This document shows, piece after piece, positions 52,188 through 58,717 of a stretch of 64,000 nucleotides of DNA (position 1 is its first letter; each line of letters starts with the position of its first letter). The DNA is taken from contig NC_016024.1 in the NCBI RefSeq assembly GCF_000226295.1, forward strand, positions 107,501-171,500, read 5' to 3'. Under the pieces are notes generated by a model. That model saw only the letters and a list, made by a program, of their open reading frames with translations, was not told the DNA's origin and ran no database searches. The translations under genes were made by a program, and so were the position numbers. This DNA comes from Chloracidobacterium thermophilum B. Its GTDB lineage: Bacteria; Acidobacteriota; Blastocatellia; Chloracidobacteriales; Chloracidobacteriaceae.

Positions 52188-52976
52188 ATGTTCGACACCA
52201 TGGTTGAGTCCACTTCGCAAGCCAAAGACGCCGGTCGGCGCTCAGCCTTCTTTTTCGTGACGCTCATTATCTGGGTGGTCGGCTTCACTGGCCTGGTAAT
52301 TTGGCAGGTGTGGACCTATGCCGCCGAACTAAGTCAGTCGGCCAACGATGTAACACTGCTTGCTCCGCCACCACCGCCGCCGCCACCGCCGCCGCCACCA
52401 CCGGCTGCCACGACATCGGCACCTCAGACCAAGGCGCCGATTGTTGACGACACATTTACCGCGCCGAAAGAAGTCCCGAAGGAAATCAAGGAGATTCCAA
52501 AGCAGGCCCAACTCCGTTCACGGGTTGGCGATGCTGGTGCTAGTGATGCGGCTGGAATGGTAGGTGGTGTACCGGGTGGTGTACCGGGTGGTGTACCGGG
52601 TGGTGTACCGGGTGGTGTACCTGGGAGCACGGGGGATGCTGCACCGCCGCCGCCGCCGGATCCGCCCAAAGAAGCTCAGGTGCCTTCTGGCCCTGTTCGG
52701 AAAAGTGAAGGTGTTCTCAAGGGAAATGCCATCAACCGTGTGCAGCCGGACTATCCAGCCGTTGCCAAGTCTGCCCGGATACAGGGAGCGGTCGTCGTTG
52801 AGATTGTCATCAATGAGGAAGGGCAGGTGATCAGTGCGCGGGCGGTGAGTGGTCCGGCATTGTTACAGCAGGCTGCGGTGAGTGCTGCCCGTCGGTGGAC
52901 GTTCAAGCCGACCATTCTCAATGGTCAGCCGGTGAAAGTCTCCGGGGCGATTACGTTCAACTTTGTACTCAACTAG
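52188..52976 (+). CDS. tonB: TonB family energy-transducing protein
   Basis: The 262-residue protein has one N-terminal membrane anchor (about 20-45) and a run of 13 prolines. A linker holds five GGVP repeats (about residues 126-145), a second proline stretch follows, and then a C-terminal TonB domain (NRVQPDYPAVAKSARIQGAVVVEIVINEEGQV...SAARRWTFKP). It would span the periplasm and energise outer-membrane receptors. It leads an operon with exbB and two exbD genes. A Shine-Dalgarno AAGGTGAGG precedes the ATG. Confidence 0.92.
   Translation: MFDTMVESTSQAKDAGRRSAFFFVTLIIWVVGFTGLVIWQVWTYAAELSQSANDVTLLAPPPPPPPPPPPPPAATTSAPQTKAPIVDDTFTAPKEVPKEIKEIPKQAQLRSRVGDAGASDAAGMVGGVPGGVPGGVPGGVPGGVPGSTGDAAPPPPPDPPKEAQVPSGPVRKSEGVLKGNAINRVQPDYPAVAKSARIQGAVVVEIVINEEGQVISARAVSGPALLQQAAVSAARRWTFKPTILNGQPVKVSGAITFNFVLN
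52563..52622 (+). repeat. Five 12-bp tandem repeats inside tonB
   Basis: GGTGGTGTACCG is repeated five times (last unit ends CCT), encoding (GGVP)5 in the periplasmic linker. Near-identity of units indicates recent slippage. The copy number is likely variable between strains. Confidence 0.95.
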
Positions 52977-53122
52977 GGAGCTCGTGCCATCCGTAAGCGT
53001 GTGTATGGGGTGCGCCCCTGTTCTCAAGTGACCAGCGGGGGCTTCCTCTCGCTGGAGAGGAGGCTGTAACGCTCCTGGTCCCTACCTTGGAAGCTTTCTT
53101 CTACTTTGGAGGATGACATCTC

Positions 53123-53878
53123 ATGACGTTGCTGTTCACAAAGTTCGGCTTGCTGACTATGCAGGCAGTCATCATGTTTGCTGCTGAAGGCGGCAAGGCC
53201 GAAACCGAAGACTTTACCCTGCTCGGCATGATCCGCAAGATGGGGCCGACGGCGTTGGTCGTGGCGATCATTTTGTTCCTCATGTCGGTCTATTCGATTG
53301 CCATCATGGTTGAGCGTTTTCTGACCTACACGCAAGCCAAAACCCAATCGCGTGAATTCGCTCCCAAAGTGGCGCAGGCACTGAAGAATGACCGTATTGA
53401 GGAAGCCATTAACATCGCTGACCAGCACCGCAAGAGCCATCTGGCGGTGGTTGTCAACGCCGGCTTGCAGGAATTCCGTGCGCATCAGAATGACCCGAAT
53501 CTTTCCGGTGATGTGATTGAAGCCTCAAAGCGGGCCCTGCAACGGGCGGTCGCCGTCAAGATGGCCGAGTTCAAGAAGGGGCTTTCGGGGTTGGCCACGA
53601 TTGGTTCGACAGCGCCATTTGTGGGTCTCTTTGGCACAGTCGTTGGGATCATCAACGCCTTCCAGGGGATGAAGGAAGCTGAAGGCGCTGGGATTGGAGC
53701 GGTGGCTGGAGGCATCTCCGAAGCGCTGGTTGAGACGGCATTTGGACTCCTGGTGGCGGTACCAGCGGTGTGGATGTTCAACTATTTCACAAGCAAGGTC
53801 GAGGCCTATAACGTCGAAATGGAAAATTCATCATCCGAGTTGATTGATTATTTCCTGAAGCGGCGGGGAGTGCGCTAA
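53123..53878 (+). CDS. exbB: MotA/TolQ/ExbB proton channel family protein
   Basis: The 251-residue protein has three membrane segments. The conserved stretch is KGLSGLATIGSTAPFVGLFGTVVGIINAFQGM, and the last segment contains VETAFGLLVAVPAVWMFNYF. It forms the proton-driven channel energising TonB. An N-terminal extension of about 35 residues precedes the usual start of the first helix. GGAGG lies upstream of the ATG. Confidence 0.94.
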   Translation: MTLLFTKFGLLTMQAVIMFAAEGGKAETEDFTLLGMIRKMGPTALVVAIILFLMSVYSIAIMVERFLTYTQAKTQSREFAPKVAQALKNDRIEEAINIADQHRKSHLAVVVNAGLQEFRAHQNDPNLSGDVIEASKRALQRAVAVKMAEFKKGLSGLATIGSTAPFVGLFGTVVGIINAFQGMKEAEGAGIGAVAGGISEALVETAFGLLVAVPAVWMFNYFTSKVEAYNVEMENSSSELIDYFLKRRGVR

Positions 53879-53881
53879 GCC

Positions 53882-54313
53882 ATGGGCATGTCGGCTGGTG
53901 GTGGAAGCAGCTACAACAGCGACATCAACGTGACGCCCATGGTGGATGTGATGTTGGTGCTGCTGATCATCTTTATCGTCGTTACTCCCCTGTTGTCGCA
54001 AGGGGTCAATGTCAACTTGCCTGAAAATGACAACCCGGATGAAGACCCAAACATTACCAAGGACACTTCAGTCGTAGTCTCGATTCCACAGGCGGGGCAG
54101 TACTACGTTGGGCGTGAGCCGGTCGCCCGGACGGAGTTGGTCGAGCGGATCAAACGCCTGATGCGGGAGAAAGCCAGAAAGGAAGAACAGGTCGTTTACA
54201 TCCGGGCAGAGAAGACCGTTCCTTACGGCGAGGTGGTGATGACCGTGGACGCCATCCGCAACGCCGGTATAGACCGGATTGGACTCGTCACTGAAAAGCG
54301 CAAGAAGAAGTGA
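53882..54313 (+). CDS. exbD: ExbD/TolR family protein (first copy)
   Basis: The 143-residue protein begins MGMSAGGGSS. It has the ExbD signature INVTPMVDVMLVLLIIFIV with the proton-relay Asp in the single membrane helix, followed by a periplasmic domain. It starts three bases after exbB. It is a close paralogue of the second copy, with a similar glycine-rich N-terminus. Confidence 0.93.
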   Translation: MGMSAGGGSSYNSDINVTPMVDVMLVLLIIFIVVTPLLSQGVNVNLPENDNPDEDPNITKDTSVVVSIPQAGQYYVGREPVARTELVERIKRLMREKARKEEQVVYIRAEKTVPYGEVVMTVDAIRNAGIDRIGLVTEKRKKK

Positions 54314-54430
54314 CCCCAATGACCTGTCCGCCCCTCCCACGGCTGCTGCCGCACATAGGTTGGCACGTGCCGAGGGGCACAAGGTTTGCGGGTCTCAATG
54401 AAGGATGCAACCTGTTAGGAGGGGACAACC

Positions 54431-54868
54431 ATGGGGATGTCAACTGGCGGCGGCCCAAGTGGGAGTGACACCAGCGGCCCGCGCCCGGATGTCAACATTA
54501 CACCGCTGATAGATGTCCTGCTGGTGATGATCATTATCTTTATGGTCATCAAACACAAGGACCCACACCGCTTTGAGAGCAAAATCCCGGAAAAGCCCAA
54601 AGAGCAGCAGCAGGTGAAAAGTGACACCATCTTTCCGGTGCTGACGATTGATCGGCAGGGTGTCATCCGGTGGAACACACAGGAAAAAACCGAAGAGCAG
54701 CTCAAACGTGAGCTGAAAGAGTTTTTGGATAATCGTCCGTCTGATCTTCGGGCGGCTTTTATCAAGGCCCCACGGGATGTCCAGTATGAGCGCGTCATGA
54801 AGCTCATTGACCTTGCCAAGGGCGCTGGTGCTTCTCCAATTGGATTGCAGATTGACAACCTCGATTGA
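54431..54868 (+). CDS. exbD: ExbD/TolR family protein (second copy)
   Basis: The 145-residue protein begins MGMSTGGGPSG and has VNITPLIDVLLVMIIIFMV with the Asp of the relay. Its periplasmic part differs more from the first copy. A strong AGGAGGGG precedes the ATG. Two ExbD paralogues beside one ExbB are typical of Myxococcota and Acidobacteriota Ton-type clusters and may form a heteromeric periplasmic unit. Confidence 0.92.
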   Translation: MGMSTGGGPSGSDTSGPRPDVNITPLIDVLLVMIIIFMVIKHKDPHRFESKIPEKPKEQQQVKSDTIFPVLTIDRQGVIRWNTQEKTEEQLKRELKEFLDNRPSDLRAAFIKAPRDVQYERVMKLIDLAKGAGASPIGLQIDNLD

Positions 54869-55738: not shown

Positions 55739-55769
55739 GCTTGTTTTTCCAAAATCCTGCTGTGTTCTG

Positions 55770-55807
55770 TTGACCGTAGCTTGGAAGCAGCTACGGTCAA
55801 TCTTTTT
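55770..55807 (+). terminator. Intrinsic terminator of the tonB-exbBD-TPR operon
   Basis: TTGACCGTAGCT and AGCTACGGTCAA make a perfect 12-bp stem with a 7-nt loop, followed by TCTTTTT. It separates the Ton operon from the E1-like gene. Confidence 0.92.
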
Positions 55808-55861: not shown

Positions 55862-57115
55862 ATGGAATCCTTCTTTGAGCGACAGGAACGACTAAGCTGG
55901 TGGCGGCAGGATGTCCTGCGGGCGGCACGCATTATGGTGGTTGGGGCTGGTGCTCTGGGCAACGAGACCCTCAAAAACCTGGCCCTCCTTGGGGTGCGAT
56001 GGATGCTGGTCGTTGACCAGGATGACATCGCCCCTTCCAACCTCAGTCGTACCGTCTTGTTTCAGCCTTCCGACATTGGTCGCCGCAAGGCAAAGGTCGC
56101 TGCTGAGCGGACACAAGCCCTCTGCCGTGATAACGGAGGAACGGTCCGCCCACTGGATGCCGACCTGGTGTGGGACATTGGCCTGGGGGTCTTTCGGCGG
56201 GTGGATGTGATTTTGGGCTGTGTGGATAACGACGAAGCGCGCTTGGCCATCAATCGCGCCGCGCGCGCCGTGGGCATTCCCTGGATCAATGCCGGCATGC
56301 ATGAACTGACCGGCAGTGTCACCTCCTTTTCAGGTGAGGCCGGAGCCTGTTTTGAATGTGCTGTGACCCCGGATCAGGTCGCTGATGCACAATCACGGTA
56401 TGATTCATGCGAGCAGGTGCGCCGGCGCTACCTCGTGGAAGAACGTTTGCCGACCATCCAGGTGACATCCGCACTGACTTCTGCTCTCCAGGTGCAGGAG
56501 GCGCTCAAGGTTTTGCACAGGGAGCCGGTGAACTTCGGTGTGCGGTACGTGTACAATGGACTCACCCACGGTTTTCACGCGATTCAGTTGCCTTATGACC
56601 CGCACTGTCTGGCGCATGGTCGGCTTGGCTCAGTTGTCGAACTGCCGATTGGCGCCGATGCTTCACTGAGACAGACGCTTGATGTTCTTGAAGCGCATTT
56701 CGGTCACGGTGTGACCGTTCACCTCGACCGGCGTTACATCCGCCGCATTGGGTGCCGTCGGTGTGGACGGCCGCTGCTGGTTCAGCGTCCGGCGCATCGG
56801 ATCTACGATGACGAGTTGGTTTGCGCTGACTGTCCAAGCCCTGGTGATTTTGCTATAAGTGAAGCCATGCCACAGGTGGCCACCGCAGACAGTTACATTG
56901 AGATTGTGACCTGTTTTACAGGTGATACCTTTGGGGGAGTCCCCATGACAGATGAGGATGAAAGGCGTACGTTGCGTCAACTGGGAATCCCTCCCCTGCA
57001 CATTCTGACAGTCGAAGACCGGTGTGGGCGGCGTTGGTCATGCGAGTTGACCGGTGACGTGGCAACGGTCTTGGGAGACTGGGGAGTAGAAACCTTGACC
57101 TCCTCACGTGGATAA
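55862..57115 (+). CDS. E1-like (ThiF/MoeB-type) activating enzyme with C-terminal zinc ribbon
   Basis: The 417-residue protein starts RQERLSWWRQDVL and has the adenylation core: VVGAGALGNETLKNLALLG (about 26-44), VVDQDDIAPSNLSRTVLF (Asp52, Arg63), Lys76 and LGCVDNDEARLAIN. A CFEC pair (163/166) and Cys183 (YDSCEQ), ahead of LPTIQVTSALTSALQVQEALKVL, are candidate zinc and thioester sites. Unlike ThiF or MoeB it continues for ~170 residues, with a C298-C301...C321-C324 zinc ribbon and a further domain I do not recognise. Such enzymes adenylate the C-terminal Gly of ubiquitin-like proteins. A ubiquitin-like gene lies 550 bp downstream. ATG 55862 was chosen by the E1 N-terminus; the upstream open frame overlaps the terminator. 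Molybdopterin or thiamine genes are absent nearby. Confidence 0.82.
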   Translation: MESFFERQERLSWWRQDVLRAARIMVVGAGALGNETLKNLALLGVRWMLVVDQDDIAPSNLSRTVLFQPSDIGRRKAKVAAERTQALCRDNGGTVRPLDADLVWDIGLGVFRRVDVILGCVDNDEARLAINRAARAVGIPWINAGMHELTGSVTSFSGEAGACFECAVTPDQVADAQSRYDSCEQVRRRYLVEERLPTIQVTSALTSALQVQEALKVLHREPVNFGVRYVYNGLTHGFHAIQLPYDPHCLAHGRLGSVVELPIGADASLRQTLDVLEAHFGHGVTVHLDRRYIRRIGCRRCGRPLLVQRPAHRIYDDELVCADCPSPGDFAISEAMPQVATADSYIEIVTCFTGDTFGGVPMTDEDERRTLRQLGIPPLHILTVEDRCGRRWSCELTGDVATVLGDWGVETLTSSRG

Positions 57116-57124
57116 CCGGTTTTG

Positions 57125-57141
57125 GACGCAGGTCTTGCGTC
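57125..57141 (+). terminator. Small hairpin after the E1-like gene
   Basis: GACGCA-GGTCT-TGCGTC forms a 6-bp stem just after the stop codon, followed by TCTAACTT. It is weak as a terminator. The 57116-57277 gap otherwise shows no feature, so the next two genes may still be co-transcribed with the E1-like gene. Confidence 0.3.
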
Positions 57142-57277
57142 TCTAACTTGGACGGATTTCCCTGAAGCGCGGCGTGTGAGCCTAAGCATGGTGGGCGATG
57201 GCTTCAGGACCTCTCAGCTTTCAACTTCGGCAGCACACACTCAGGTAGTTTCTTGCCCGTGAAAGGACACGTGCCGT

Positions 57278-57601
57278 ATGGAGGGGGTCATCGTCTTGGG
57301 TTTGCTTCTGTTCGTAATGATTATCATCGTGTCCTGTGGCTTTGAGTTCTATGAACTCTACCAAGTACGGCGTGACCTTGAAGAAGGAAGCCGCTCCGGG
57401 AATCATATTTTGTTTCCACGGCATCATTACGCCGAACTGCACCGGCGGAACTACTATACCCCCCCTTTGCCCGGAGGCGCTGAGCGTACCTTTCGTGTCA
57501 AGCGGAAAGAACAACCAGTGCGCTGCGAAGTCTGCCACCAGGACGATTGCTTCGAGGTACGAACCGGTTACTGCACACGCTGCAACTATTACACCCTGTA
57601 G
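57278..57601 (+). CDS. Small membrane-anchored zinc-ribbon protein, unknown family
   Basis: The 107-residue protein has one N-terminal membrane segment (residues 4-20). A short charged region follows, then a C-terminal zinc-ribbon-like pair C83-x2-C86 ... C99-x2-C102 with an extra Cys91. I do not recognise the family. ATG has GAAAGGA ten bases upstream. It sits between the E1-like and ubiquitin-like genes on the same strand; 57 bp separate it from the latter. It might be a membrane target, adaptor or RING-like factor of the same system, but only position suggests this. Confidence 0.65.
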   Translation: MEGVIVLGLLLFVMIIIVSCGFEFYELYQVRRDLEEGSRSGNHILFPRHHYAELHRRNYYTPPLPGGAERTFRVKRKEQPVRCEVCHQDDCFEVRTGYCTRCNYYTL

Positions 57602-57658
57602 TTGGAAGTCCCTTTCTTGCACCACGGGGCTGACATCAGAAGTCGAGGTCGTTTGCCA

Positions 57659-57952
57659 ATGTCCGACGTTGACATCACTTTTCGCAATGAAAACAACGGG
57701 AAAGAGGTAGAAGTTACGGTTTCTGATGACATGACGGCAGATGCCATCCTGCGAAACCTCGTTGAAGCAGGTGTCATCCCGAATGTGCCGGGAACGACCC
57801 TCGTGTTTCGCAACATGCAACTGCGTCCCAATCAGACCCTGGCTCAGGCTGGGGTTGTTTCCGGGGACACCATTGGGATTTTTCTCAATACTCGCGGTGG
57901 GCGGCAGCCGTTGAACTCAGGCAACCGGATAGTGGTTGGTTACTGCTCATGA
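57659..57952 (+). CDS. Ubiquitin-like beta-grasp protein with internal RGG and C-terminal tail
   Basis: The 97-residue protein reads as a ubiquitin/YukD-like beta-grasp fold: DITFRNENNGKEVEVTVSDD, the helix TADAILRNLVEAG, and LVFRNMQLRPNQTLAQAGV. From LVF to RGG (residues 48-81) it is the same length as human ubiquitin from LIF to its terminal RGG. Shared positions include L, F, QL, TL and RGG. A 16-residue tail follows Gly81. Ubiquitin-like precursors need such tails cleaved to expose Gly-Gly. ATG 57659 was chosen because the fold begins there; GAGGTC lies upstream. Its stop overlaps that of the convergent DICT gene by 6 bp. Fold assignment is good; conjugation is inferred. Confidence 0.78.
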   Translation: MSDVDITFRNENNGKEVEVTVSDDMTADAILRNLVEAGVIPNVPGTTLVFRNMQLRPNQTLAQAGVVSGDTIGIFLNTRGGRQPLNSGNRIVVGYCS

Positions 57953-58549
57953 AATGCCCACCGTGTCGGTTTGGGGGAGAATACGCAGTTCCGGCCGGGC
58001 GTAGTGGGCTTGGATGCTACTGCGGATGGTATCTATGTACTCGTCCCGGTAAGTCCAGAACCCTTCAAACCGACGCTTTCCTCCAGGATACCCGTTTTTG
58101 ACGGACGCCGCCGATTGTGGCTCTGGCAGGCGACACTCGCGGGCAAACAGGGCAATCCGGAAGCGGGTGTCGTCACTGAGAACAATCCAGTAGTCCCGAC
58201 ATGCGGCATCGGCCGGGCGGAAAAACTGAAGGTTCTCAGCAATGAACGGGGGGGCAATGTCTGGTTCACCAATGATCCAGACTTGTTGTGAAGTGCGGGC
58301 AATCGCCGCATAGCGTTCCTGCTGGGGCAGAAACAGTGAAAGTTTCTGGAAGGAGGCAACGAAGAGTCCAGAGAGCCGTTTCTCGATGAAGCGGTCCTCA
58401 ATGTAGTGTGAAATGCTCAACATCAGGGAAAAGTTGAGCGTGCGGAACGTATCGGTCTCCGTGACGGGCAGCCCGCCACCGTTGCGCTCGGCGCGTGCGT
58501 CGAGGTGATGCACAATGTCTTCAAACGTTTTGACGATGGGTGCCGACAT
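57947..58549 (-). CDS. DICT-domain sensory protein
   Basis: The 200-residue protein resembles the DICT domain, found with diguanylate cyclases and two-component proteins and common in Cyanobacteria. Pieces are FSLMLSISHYIEDRFIEKR, LFVASFQKLSLFLPQQERYAAIA, VWIIGEPD and the late FEGFWTYRDEYIDTIRS. It is a stand-alone sensory domain with no output domain. ATG 58549 was chosen because GGGAG lies seven bases upstream; the earlier frame covers the promoter region. Twin palindromic sites lie about 100-170 bp upstream. Confidence 0.72.
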   Translation of the reverse strand: MSAPIVKTFEDIVHHLDARAERNGGGLPVTETDTFRTLNFSLMLSISHYIEDRFIEKRLSGLFVASFQKLSLFLPQQERYAAIARTSQQVWIIGEPDIAPPFIAENLQFFRPADAACRDYWIVLSDDTRFRIALFARECRLPEPQSAASVKNGYPGGKRRFEGFWTYRDEYIDTIRSSIQAHYARPELRILPQTDTVGIS

Positions 58550-58645
58550 GGCGAAACTCCCGTGGCAACCGCGCCCCATCGGCGACCGGCGGGAATGGGC
58601 TGCCGGGGACATGGCTCGTTGGTCGTGATGGTGTCTCCAACGGCT

Positions 58646-58717
58646 AAGTGTATTTTCATACACTTTTGGATGGGATACAACCCATGTTCCGCGAAAAAGT
58701 GTACTTTTTTTCACTTT
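58646..58717. promoter_or_regulatory. Pair of related 21-bp palindromic sites upstream of the DICT gene
   Basis: Site 1 (58646-58666) contains AAGTGTAT-TTTC-ATACACTT, a perfect 8-bp inverted repeat. Site 2 (58697-58717) reads AAGTGTACTTTTTTTCACTT plus one T and matches site 1 at about 16 of 21 positions. Their starts are 51 bp apart, close to five helical turns. This arrangement suits two dimers of a transcription factor controlling the DICT gene or its divergent neighbour. Confidence 0.55.

Follow-up and report, generated by a model that had tools for sequence, protein, structure and literature searches.

A 64,000-nucleotide stretch of the genome of Chloracidobacterium thermophilum B (the window, G000:C1:107501-171500; the genome, G000, consists of two contigs with 3,695,372 bases) carries a cassette of three consecutive genes on one strand, which encode an E1-like activating enzyme, a small membrane protein named P0002 and a ubiquitin-like protein (UBL). 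This cassette is probably one half of a complete, single-copy, inherited pathway of UBL conjugation and deconjugation (UBL, E1, E2 and JAMM), the other half being an E2 and a JAMM protease encoded elsewhere in the same genome, and our reading is that the pathway would act at least partly at the membrane. The first-pass annotation of this DNA had described the three genes and proposed a ubiquitin-like modification system; the open reading frames (ORFs) were confirmed at their positions, and the proposal was supported. The components and their predicted functional sites are:

55862-57115, plus strand: E1-like activating enzyme, 417 amino acids, with an adenylation domain at residues ~5-254 and a C-terminal domain at residues ~258-410 (Pfam ThiF 5.9e-44; AlphaFold2 model)
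56408-56410, plus strand: codon of E1 Cys183 (YDSC), the predicted thioester cysteine, invariant in 13/13 aligned E1s
56753-56833, plus strand: four-cysteine zinc-ribbon-like stretch in the E1 C-terminal domain (C298, C301, C321, C324), all four cysteines invariant in 13/13
57278-57601, plus strand: P0002, 107 amino acids, with one N-terminal transmembrane helix (hydropathy window) and a C-terminal zinc-ribbon-like domain; same slot in relatives
57524-57583, plus strand: ribbon CEVCHQDDCFEVRTGYCTRC, a domain common to many membrane proteins of the order, from its occurrences in the loci examined
57659-57952, plus strand: ubiquitin-like protein, precursor of 97 amino acids (Pfam Rad60-SLD; hhalign to ubiquitin)
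57893-57901, plus strand: Arg79-Gly80-Gly81, predicted mature C-terminus of the UBL; RGG invariant in 14/14, stop directly after it in 3/14
57902-57949, plus strand: 16-residue tail after Gly81, predicted from the comparison of tails among 14 species to be removed by the JAMM protease
G000:C1:599513-600067, minus strand: E2 (profile match)
G000:C1:1543624-1544340, plus strand: Rpn11-like JAMM protease (profile match)

Components of the predicted pathway

The UBL matched the Pfam family Rad60-SLD with 1.5e-6, above the curated cut-off, and its matches to YukD (1.5e-5, 26.1 bits, curated cut-off 27) and ubiquitin (2e-3) were below theirs. In hhalign, the UBL aligned with ubiquitin over 73 columns up to RGG with a P-value of 1.3e-5. 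The gapless match to the final 34 residues of ubiquitin, RGG included, which had been claimed from the letters alone, was present in this alignment with 11/34 identities, and the one gap lies outside this end stretch. The UBL is one domain of 81 amino acids and, to judge from sequence profiles only, would have a fold of the beta-grasp type. It ends in LNTRGG in 14/14 genomes of the order, while the tails that follow have no common sequence: none in three species (L053, L055, L057), 1 residue in three, and 7-21 residues in eight. Gly81 is the predicted mature end because the RGG is invariant, a stop codon stands directly after it in three species, and the other tails are unconserved. Such a pattern would be expected of a precursor that is cleaved after Gly81 and whose tail can change or disappear freely.

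The E1 carries a single ThiF domain, and the mean predicted local distance difference test (pLDDT) value of its model was 76.9. In structure comparisons of this model, the adenylation domain matched 1tt5_D, of the APPBP1-UBA3 entry, with a Z of 28.4 (root-mean-square deviation, rmsd, 2.4 over 226), and MoeB with a Z of 28.2 (rmsd 3.0 over 225). Cys183 lies within the low-confidence loop 174-196 of the model, and we take its thioester role from its position relative to MoeB/ThiF-type enzymes. The CxxC at 163/166 and Cys249-x2-His252 were also invariant in 13/13, and the nucleotide-binding residues of the adenylation domain are conserved. The E1s of the relatives were 48-89% identical to the window's protein; G007 is absent from this alignment because its contig ends within the ribbon gene. 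Eukaryotic E1s have a ubiquitin-fold domain (UFD) at their chain ends. Some whole-model alignments ran on to residue ~399 of the model and to this terminal part of eukaryotic E1s, with an rmsd of 4.6-8.7 Å, which hints at a UFD, but the sequence profile of the C-terminal domain gave no UFD match, its best PDB matches being cytochrome ones (0.08).

The window itself contains no recognisable E2 or JAB gene, as the first-pass annotation had observed, and a minimal system lacking both had been suggested on that basis. This three-gene reading was dropped because both genes turned up, first in loci of the sister family and afterwards in G000, where each occurs once. In the sister family, the E2 gene lies directly 3' of the UBL gene in 4/4 loci and encodes 185-203 amino acids with HPHVWPDGKxCxGxWD. 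The JAMM gene, with the motif HTHPGFGVFMSGTD, directly follows the E2 gene in L063 and L009, in both of which E1, ribbon gene, UBL, E2 and JAB are consecutive; one gene intervenes in L008, and in L062 (G264) the E2 adjoins the UBL and the JAB is on another contig. The E2 and JAB profiles gave exactly one match each in the 12/12 genomes searched for both, G000 included. The E2 had one match in 14/14 order genomes, and the JAB is also present in L008 and L009, the loci of the remaining two.

The components of G000 lie at three loci, not in one operon. In G007, ubiE-E2-JAB-rnd are adjacent, and in G000 the E2 lies beside ubiE and the JAB beside rnd, so that E2 and JAB were apparently paired in an ancestor and separated later (the names ubiE, rnd, TPR, S1, TonB/Exb and HslV are our own readings from sequence). 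The predicted catalytic Cys95 of the E2, in HPHVWPDGKICIG, was invariant in 14/14. When the E2 profile was compared with the PDB, 60/60 matches up to E 1 were E2s or E2 variants (best 3.2e-4), and its HPH and Cys aligned with those of UBE2W over 41-42 columns. The best PDB matches of the JAB profile were 6fjv (1.2e-11), an archaeal Rpn11-like protein from what we take to be Caldiarchaeum, and RPN11 (4.7e-11). The JAB residues HTHP...SxxD were invariant in 13/13, the L009 row being left out of the JAB alignment A5 for a run of N.

A ThiF-type E1 with an RGG-ended, beta-grasp-like partner would also suit a sulphur carrier of the ThiS/MoaD/Urm1 type, in which the E1 would make a thiocarboxylate on Gly81, and ThiF/MoeB were the best named NCBIfam matches of the E1, all far under cut-off. 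Nevertheless, we consider this very improbable. Two further ThiF-family proteins are present in G000, a MoaD-MoeB-rhodanese fusion and a separate MoeB/ThiF, which makes sulphur transfer by the cassette unlikely and agrees with the earlier distinction of this E1 from sulphur-transfer E1s. Moreover, the UBL resembles ubiquitin and not MoaD (hhalign with E. coli MoaD, P-value 0.17; ThiS and Urm1 were not compared), and an E2 and an Rpn11-like JAMM were found in 12/12 of the genomes searched for both. The fusion (L001 1096-2547, minus strand, on C2 of G000) joins a MoaD/ThiS-like domain, recognised by eye, with MoeB and rhodanese in a single protein.

Conservation, selection and relatives outside the order

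The UBL was found in 10/10 genomes of the family and, with one match each, in 14/14 of the order, and in a sample of 396 genomes of the phylum the UBL occurred in 7, all within the order. Its residues 1-81 were 78-98% identical to those of the window's protein, and no UBL relatives were found in viral contigs (0 from 23 stretches). Co-conservation of the three genes had been named beforehand as a check on the first-pass annotation. The gene order E1-ribbon gene-UBL was kept in 13/13 order genomes whose contigs cover the cassette, the window's genome included, so the cassette is not a chance arrangement; in G264, two ribbon genes occupy the slot between E1 and UBL.

The UBL was the most constrained of the three cassette proteins. 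Its ratio of nonsynonymous to synonymous substitution rates (dN/dS, omega) was 0.007-0.045 (5/10 pairs computable), compared with 0.07-0.17 for the E1 (6/10 pairs) and 0.13-0.15 for the ribbon protein (2/8 pairs). The dN of the UBL was about 2.6 to 8 times below that of the E1 and about 6 to 12 times below that of the ribbon protein. The best explanation of these results is that the system was inherited with the lineage and is under strong purifying selection.

Outside the order, a distant E2 was found in 4 genomes among the 162 genomes of the class. Their loci, L170-L173, contain E1, E2 and JAB-like genes recognised by Pfam or by eye, with the E1 only partly visible in L173, and a UBL was recognised in three of them. 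The gene order E1-UBL-E2-JAB is that of L170, the closest relative detected beyond the order; the UBL of L172 is YukD-like, and the E2 of L173 is fused to double zinc ribbons. L171 (4977-10701) is a conflict-type operon from another family of the class, in which a Prok-RING_1-like protein stands just before the E1, together with a TIR-YukD-like UBL fusion, an E2 that carries a UBL-like part at its N-terminus, and a JAB-like protein (by eye). These loci suggest common descent with conflict-type operons, and on our best reading the pathway would be related to the conflict-type E1-UBL-E2-JAB operons of the class.

Most known bacterial UBL conjugation systems occur sporadically and are linked to phage defence, with which PMC11354881 and PMC13373217 agree. 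The pathway could serve defence (conflict) in the manner of Bil, Bub or CBASS, with the UBL being attached to phage or cellular proteins when infection occurs: its nearest relatives outside the order are E1-UBL-E2-JAB-type operons, one of them with a TIR-YukD protein, distant loci of such type occur in 4/162 class genomes, and the E1 matched PADLOC E1-E2 models (best 8.2e-15). However, defence fits poorly with fixed single-copy inheritance. There was a single E2 and a single UBL match in 14/14 order genomes, with the same neighbourhood within the genus, and the components are split among loci with housekeeping-type neighbours and are under strong purifying selection. No effector gene was recognised by eye beside the cassette, the flanks not having been searched by family. 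We regard defence as improbable, and the pathway resembles a fixed function of the cell, passed down the lineage, more than a mobile system of defence.

The ribbon family and the proposed mechanism

The membrane zinc-ribbon protein of the first-pass annotation was borne out in its one transmembrane helix and its C-terminal CxxC-x12-CxxC. P0002 gave no zinc-ribbon, E3 or ubiquitin-binder match, nor any other family match, in Pfam or NCBIfam, so its zinc binding is predicted from the cysteines. A survey of the ribbon yielded at least 65 distinct occurrences in the loci examined, of which 14 belonged to the cassette type and 51 did not; it took in part of at most ten places per genome and should be read as neither complete nor unbiased. 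An Arg precedes the first ribbon Cys in 65/65. In the 51 non-cassette proteins, transmembrane helices, called by a plain hydropathy window, were predicted after the ribbon in 45 and before it in 2. Seven longer ribbon proteins were compared with Pfam; one had a thioredoxin-like domain, two had ankyrin repeats and four were without a match. Genes of ribbon membrane proteins form tandem arrays of 3-5 in L038, L039 and L051 (G008, G009).

The DNA pattern for C[ED][ILMV]CHQ was counted in 392 genomes, which included the order's genomes other than G002-G005, G007, G401 and G402. The sites numbered 41 in G008, 42 in G009, 24 in G344, 3 in G264, 2 in G000, and 1 each in G001 and G006. In the rest of the phylum sample, 385 genomes, 1-2 sites occurred in 22. 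These 22 are somewhat above the control, since the reversed pattern gave one site each in 8/392 genomes, G000 and G001 among them. The complete ribbon motif was found in 0/22 pattern loci outside the order (the second site of G095 was left out) and in none of L170-L173; several of the 22 were multi-CxxCH cytochrome-like frames, and others were short or unlikely frames. In Chloracidobacterium, the three genomes counted have one ribbon protein besides the cassette gene.

CxxCH is a haem motif and is contained in the CEVCHQ of the ribbon, and a weak P0002 match in G195 is a multi-CxxCH protein. The ribbon might thus be a c-type haem site in a family that faces the periplasm and has no part in conjugation. 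This is hardly probable at all, because a second CxxC at a fixed distance belongs to the family and the charge distribution points the other way: read by the positive-inside rule, K/R counts favoured a cytosolic ribbon for 30/45 proteins whose transmembrane helices follow it, with 8 counts opposed and 7 tied, and for 12/14 cassette-type proteins, with 1 opposed and 1 tied.

The ribbon may instead be an adaptor, E3 or receptor module, and for the adaptor role, which is suggested by sequence, we would put the chance a little short of even. In 3/4 distant loci, a zinc-type protein lies just before the E1 or is fused to the E2, never between E1 and UBL; one is RING-like (Prok-RING_1 2.3e-4) and one has a transposase-type ribbon (5.3e-5), both under cut-off. 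These proteins support, without proving, an E3-like role for the ribbon protein of the window. It is also quite possible, though we doubt it, that E1, UBL, E2 and JAMM form the pathway and the ribbon protein is a bystander from a family spread for other reasons. P0002 evolves fast (dN 0.07-0.57) and matched no E3 or ubiquitin binder, and the co-occurrence of ribbon and pathway is confounded by shared ancestry. A bystander, however, would have been kept between E1 and UBL in 13/13 genomes and doubled in G264, and it accords less well with the zinc-type proteins of the distant loci and with the lack of a complete ribbon motif in the pattern loci outside the order and in L170-L173.

The motif F-x-[IV]-K was seen at the JAB start in 14/14, the JAB starts having been picked with a pattern containing it. 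In the E2 tail, its first copy was present in 14/14 and its last copy (K or R) in 12/14, or 13 with Leu allowed, and in the ribbon proteins the position -8 was K or R in 42/64. In the background of long ORFs, it occurred in 19/468 (start) and 12/468 (end), these sets including the JABs and E2s. A strand-like F-x-[IV]-K common to JAB starts, E2 tails and ribbon proteins could be a shared docking motif, which we give as a lead only. One conserved acceptor lysine in the ribbon proteins was considered as well and was unsupported.

In the proposed mechanism, the JAMM protease would trim the UBL tail to Gly81, and the E1 would adenylate Gly81 and then take the UBL on Cys183. The UBL would pass from the E1 to Cys95 of the E2, which would attach it to target proteins, with the small ribbon protein aiding at the membrane as an adaptor or E3-like receptor, and the JAMM protease would later remove the UBL from the targets. 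A more specific version is a housekeeping pathway aimed at the membrane, with an RGG-ended UBL, an HPH E2 that may prefer N-terminal amines like UBE2W, and an Rpn11-like JAMM. The ribbon family would supply its receptors, E3-like adaptors or substrates; a genome would hold up to about 40 of them, for the most part membrane proteins that bear a single cytosolic zinc ribbon close to the N-terminus. The window's small protein would be the conserved founding adaptor. This version in its entirety is unlikely, and we put it forward as a speculation.

Several points weigh against the pathway as proposed. The Pfam scores of the E2 were 19.1 and 23.3 compared with a cut-off of 27, which leaves UQ_con under cut-off, and the E2 model was poor (pLDDT 46.6, TM about 0.27), although in Foldseek, the best 50 of the 729 matches (up to E 10) of this poor model were all from E2-containing entries, by titles and chain lengths. 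In the dN/dS comparison, dS was saturated in many pairs. No RING family matched the three window proteins in Pfam, and the genome was not searched for RING families. The UBL of L170, 31% identical to that of the window (match 1.6e-9), is without RGG, which means that the wider family does not share the GG end throughout. Finally, gene content, conserved gene order, predicted catalytic residues, constraint and synteny were observed, whereas the biochemical steps, and the adaptor role above all, are drawn from these sequences.

For the origin of ubiquitin, a change of a conflict system into a housekeeping modifier is commonly assumed, and the pathway described here could illustrate it. In addition, the photosynthetic Chloracidobacterium has been cultivated, and the UBL, E1, E2, JAMM and ribbon protein form a compact set that lends itself to reconstitution in vitro, for which the UBL tails give a sharp prediction: cleavage after Gly81.

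Surroundings of the cassette and comparison with known systems

Upstream of the cassette lies one further feature:

55769-55801, plus strand: terminator-like hairpin at the end of the upstream gene (stem of 13 pairs, loop of 7), followed by CTTTTTGTAA (T-run)

The strong terminator noted in the first pass is thus present as a stem with its T-run, but such sites are in no excess in the whole region (3 found compared with 2.7 in shuffles). The gene upstream of the hairpin reads as a TPR protein. On the 3' side of the UBL, a minus-strand ORF (57947-58714) is followed by a 605-residue ORF, which we read as ribosomal protein S1. Further upstream, at 52188-54868, there are genes for a TonB-like protein with GGVP repeats, an ExbB/TolQ-like protein and two ExbD/TolR-like proteins, which have relatives in the genus. 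No ESX genes were recognised by eye among the ORFs at 50-64 kb, on which no family search was made. Elsewhere in the genomes, the proteasome family PF00227 gave two matches per genome in the 8 genomes searched; of those in G000, the stronger reads as HslV, and the weaker, at G000:C2:886863-887396, is perhaps Anbu-like.

In searches by topic and not by author, we found no literature on a UBL pathway in Chloracidobacterium, Blastocatellia or Acidobacteriota, although Burroughs and co-workers reportedly surveyed bacterial ubiquitin-like operons in later work, which may mention the pathway; PMC7203096 was off topic in the passages available. As for archaea, the Ub-E1-E2-RING-Rpn11 system of Caldiarchaeum is described in PMC5654768 and PMC6043591. 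Like that system, the present one has a UBL precursor with a tail after GlyGly, an E1, an E2 and an Rpn11-like JAMM, for which it also provided the best PDB match; it differs in being bacterial and in having a membrane ribbon protein and no RING match in the window proteins. The window's UBL was closer to the bacterial UBL of L170 (1.6e-9) than to ubiquitin (1.3e-5), the ubiquitin of Caldiarchaeum not being compared.

HPH in place of HPN is called unique to the Ube2w family in PMC4630614. The E2 of G000 has HPH, with the catalytic Cys aligned to that of UBE2W, but this alignment covers 41-42 columns only, and the E2 of the L170 relative has HPN. YukD, the ESX/Wss-associated UBL, is matched in Pfam with an E of 1.5e-5, and the window's UBL differs from it by falling under the curated cut-off, by its RGG end and by its E1, E2 and JAMM partners in the genome. 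It differs from the sulphur carriers and their E1s in that two other ThiF-family proteins, one of them MoaD-fused, are present, and in its lack of similarity to MoaD.

Bacterial operons of E1, E2, JAB and Ub-like genes were described by Iyer et al. 2006 (PMC1779556), and the Bil and Bub pathways later (PMC11354881, PMC13373217); some complete bacterial operons were already known (PMC5654768). The present system shares with them the association of E1, UBL, E2 and JAB genes, and all four components are recognised here by their sequence features. BilA has two UBL domains, and BilD has two adenylation domains, one inactive and one active, according to PMC11354881, whereas the window's UBL is one domain of 81 amino acids and its E1 has one ThiF domain. 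The system further differs from the bacterial E1-E2-UBL-JAB and Bub/Bil systems in being single-copy across the order, with a single UBL domain that ends in RGG, a one-domain E1, E2 and JAB split off in one family, and an additional small membrane ribbon gene. What is new here is an order-wide single-copy system with an RGG-ended UBL, an HPH E2, an Rpn11-like JAMM and a ribbon-bearing membrane family.

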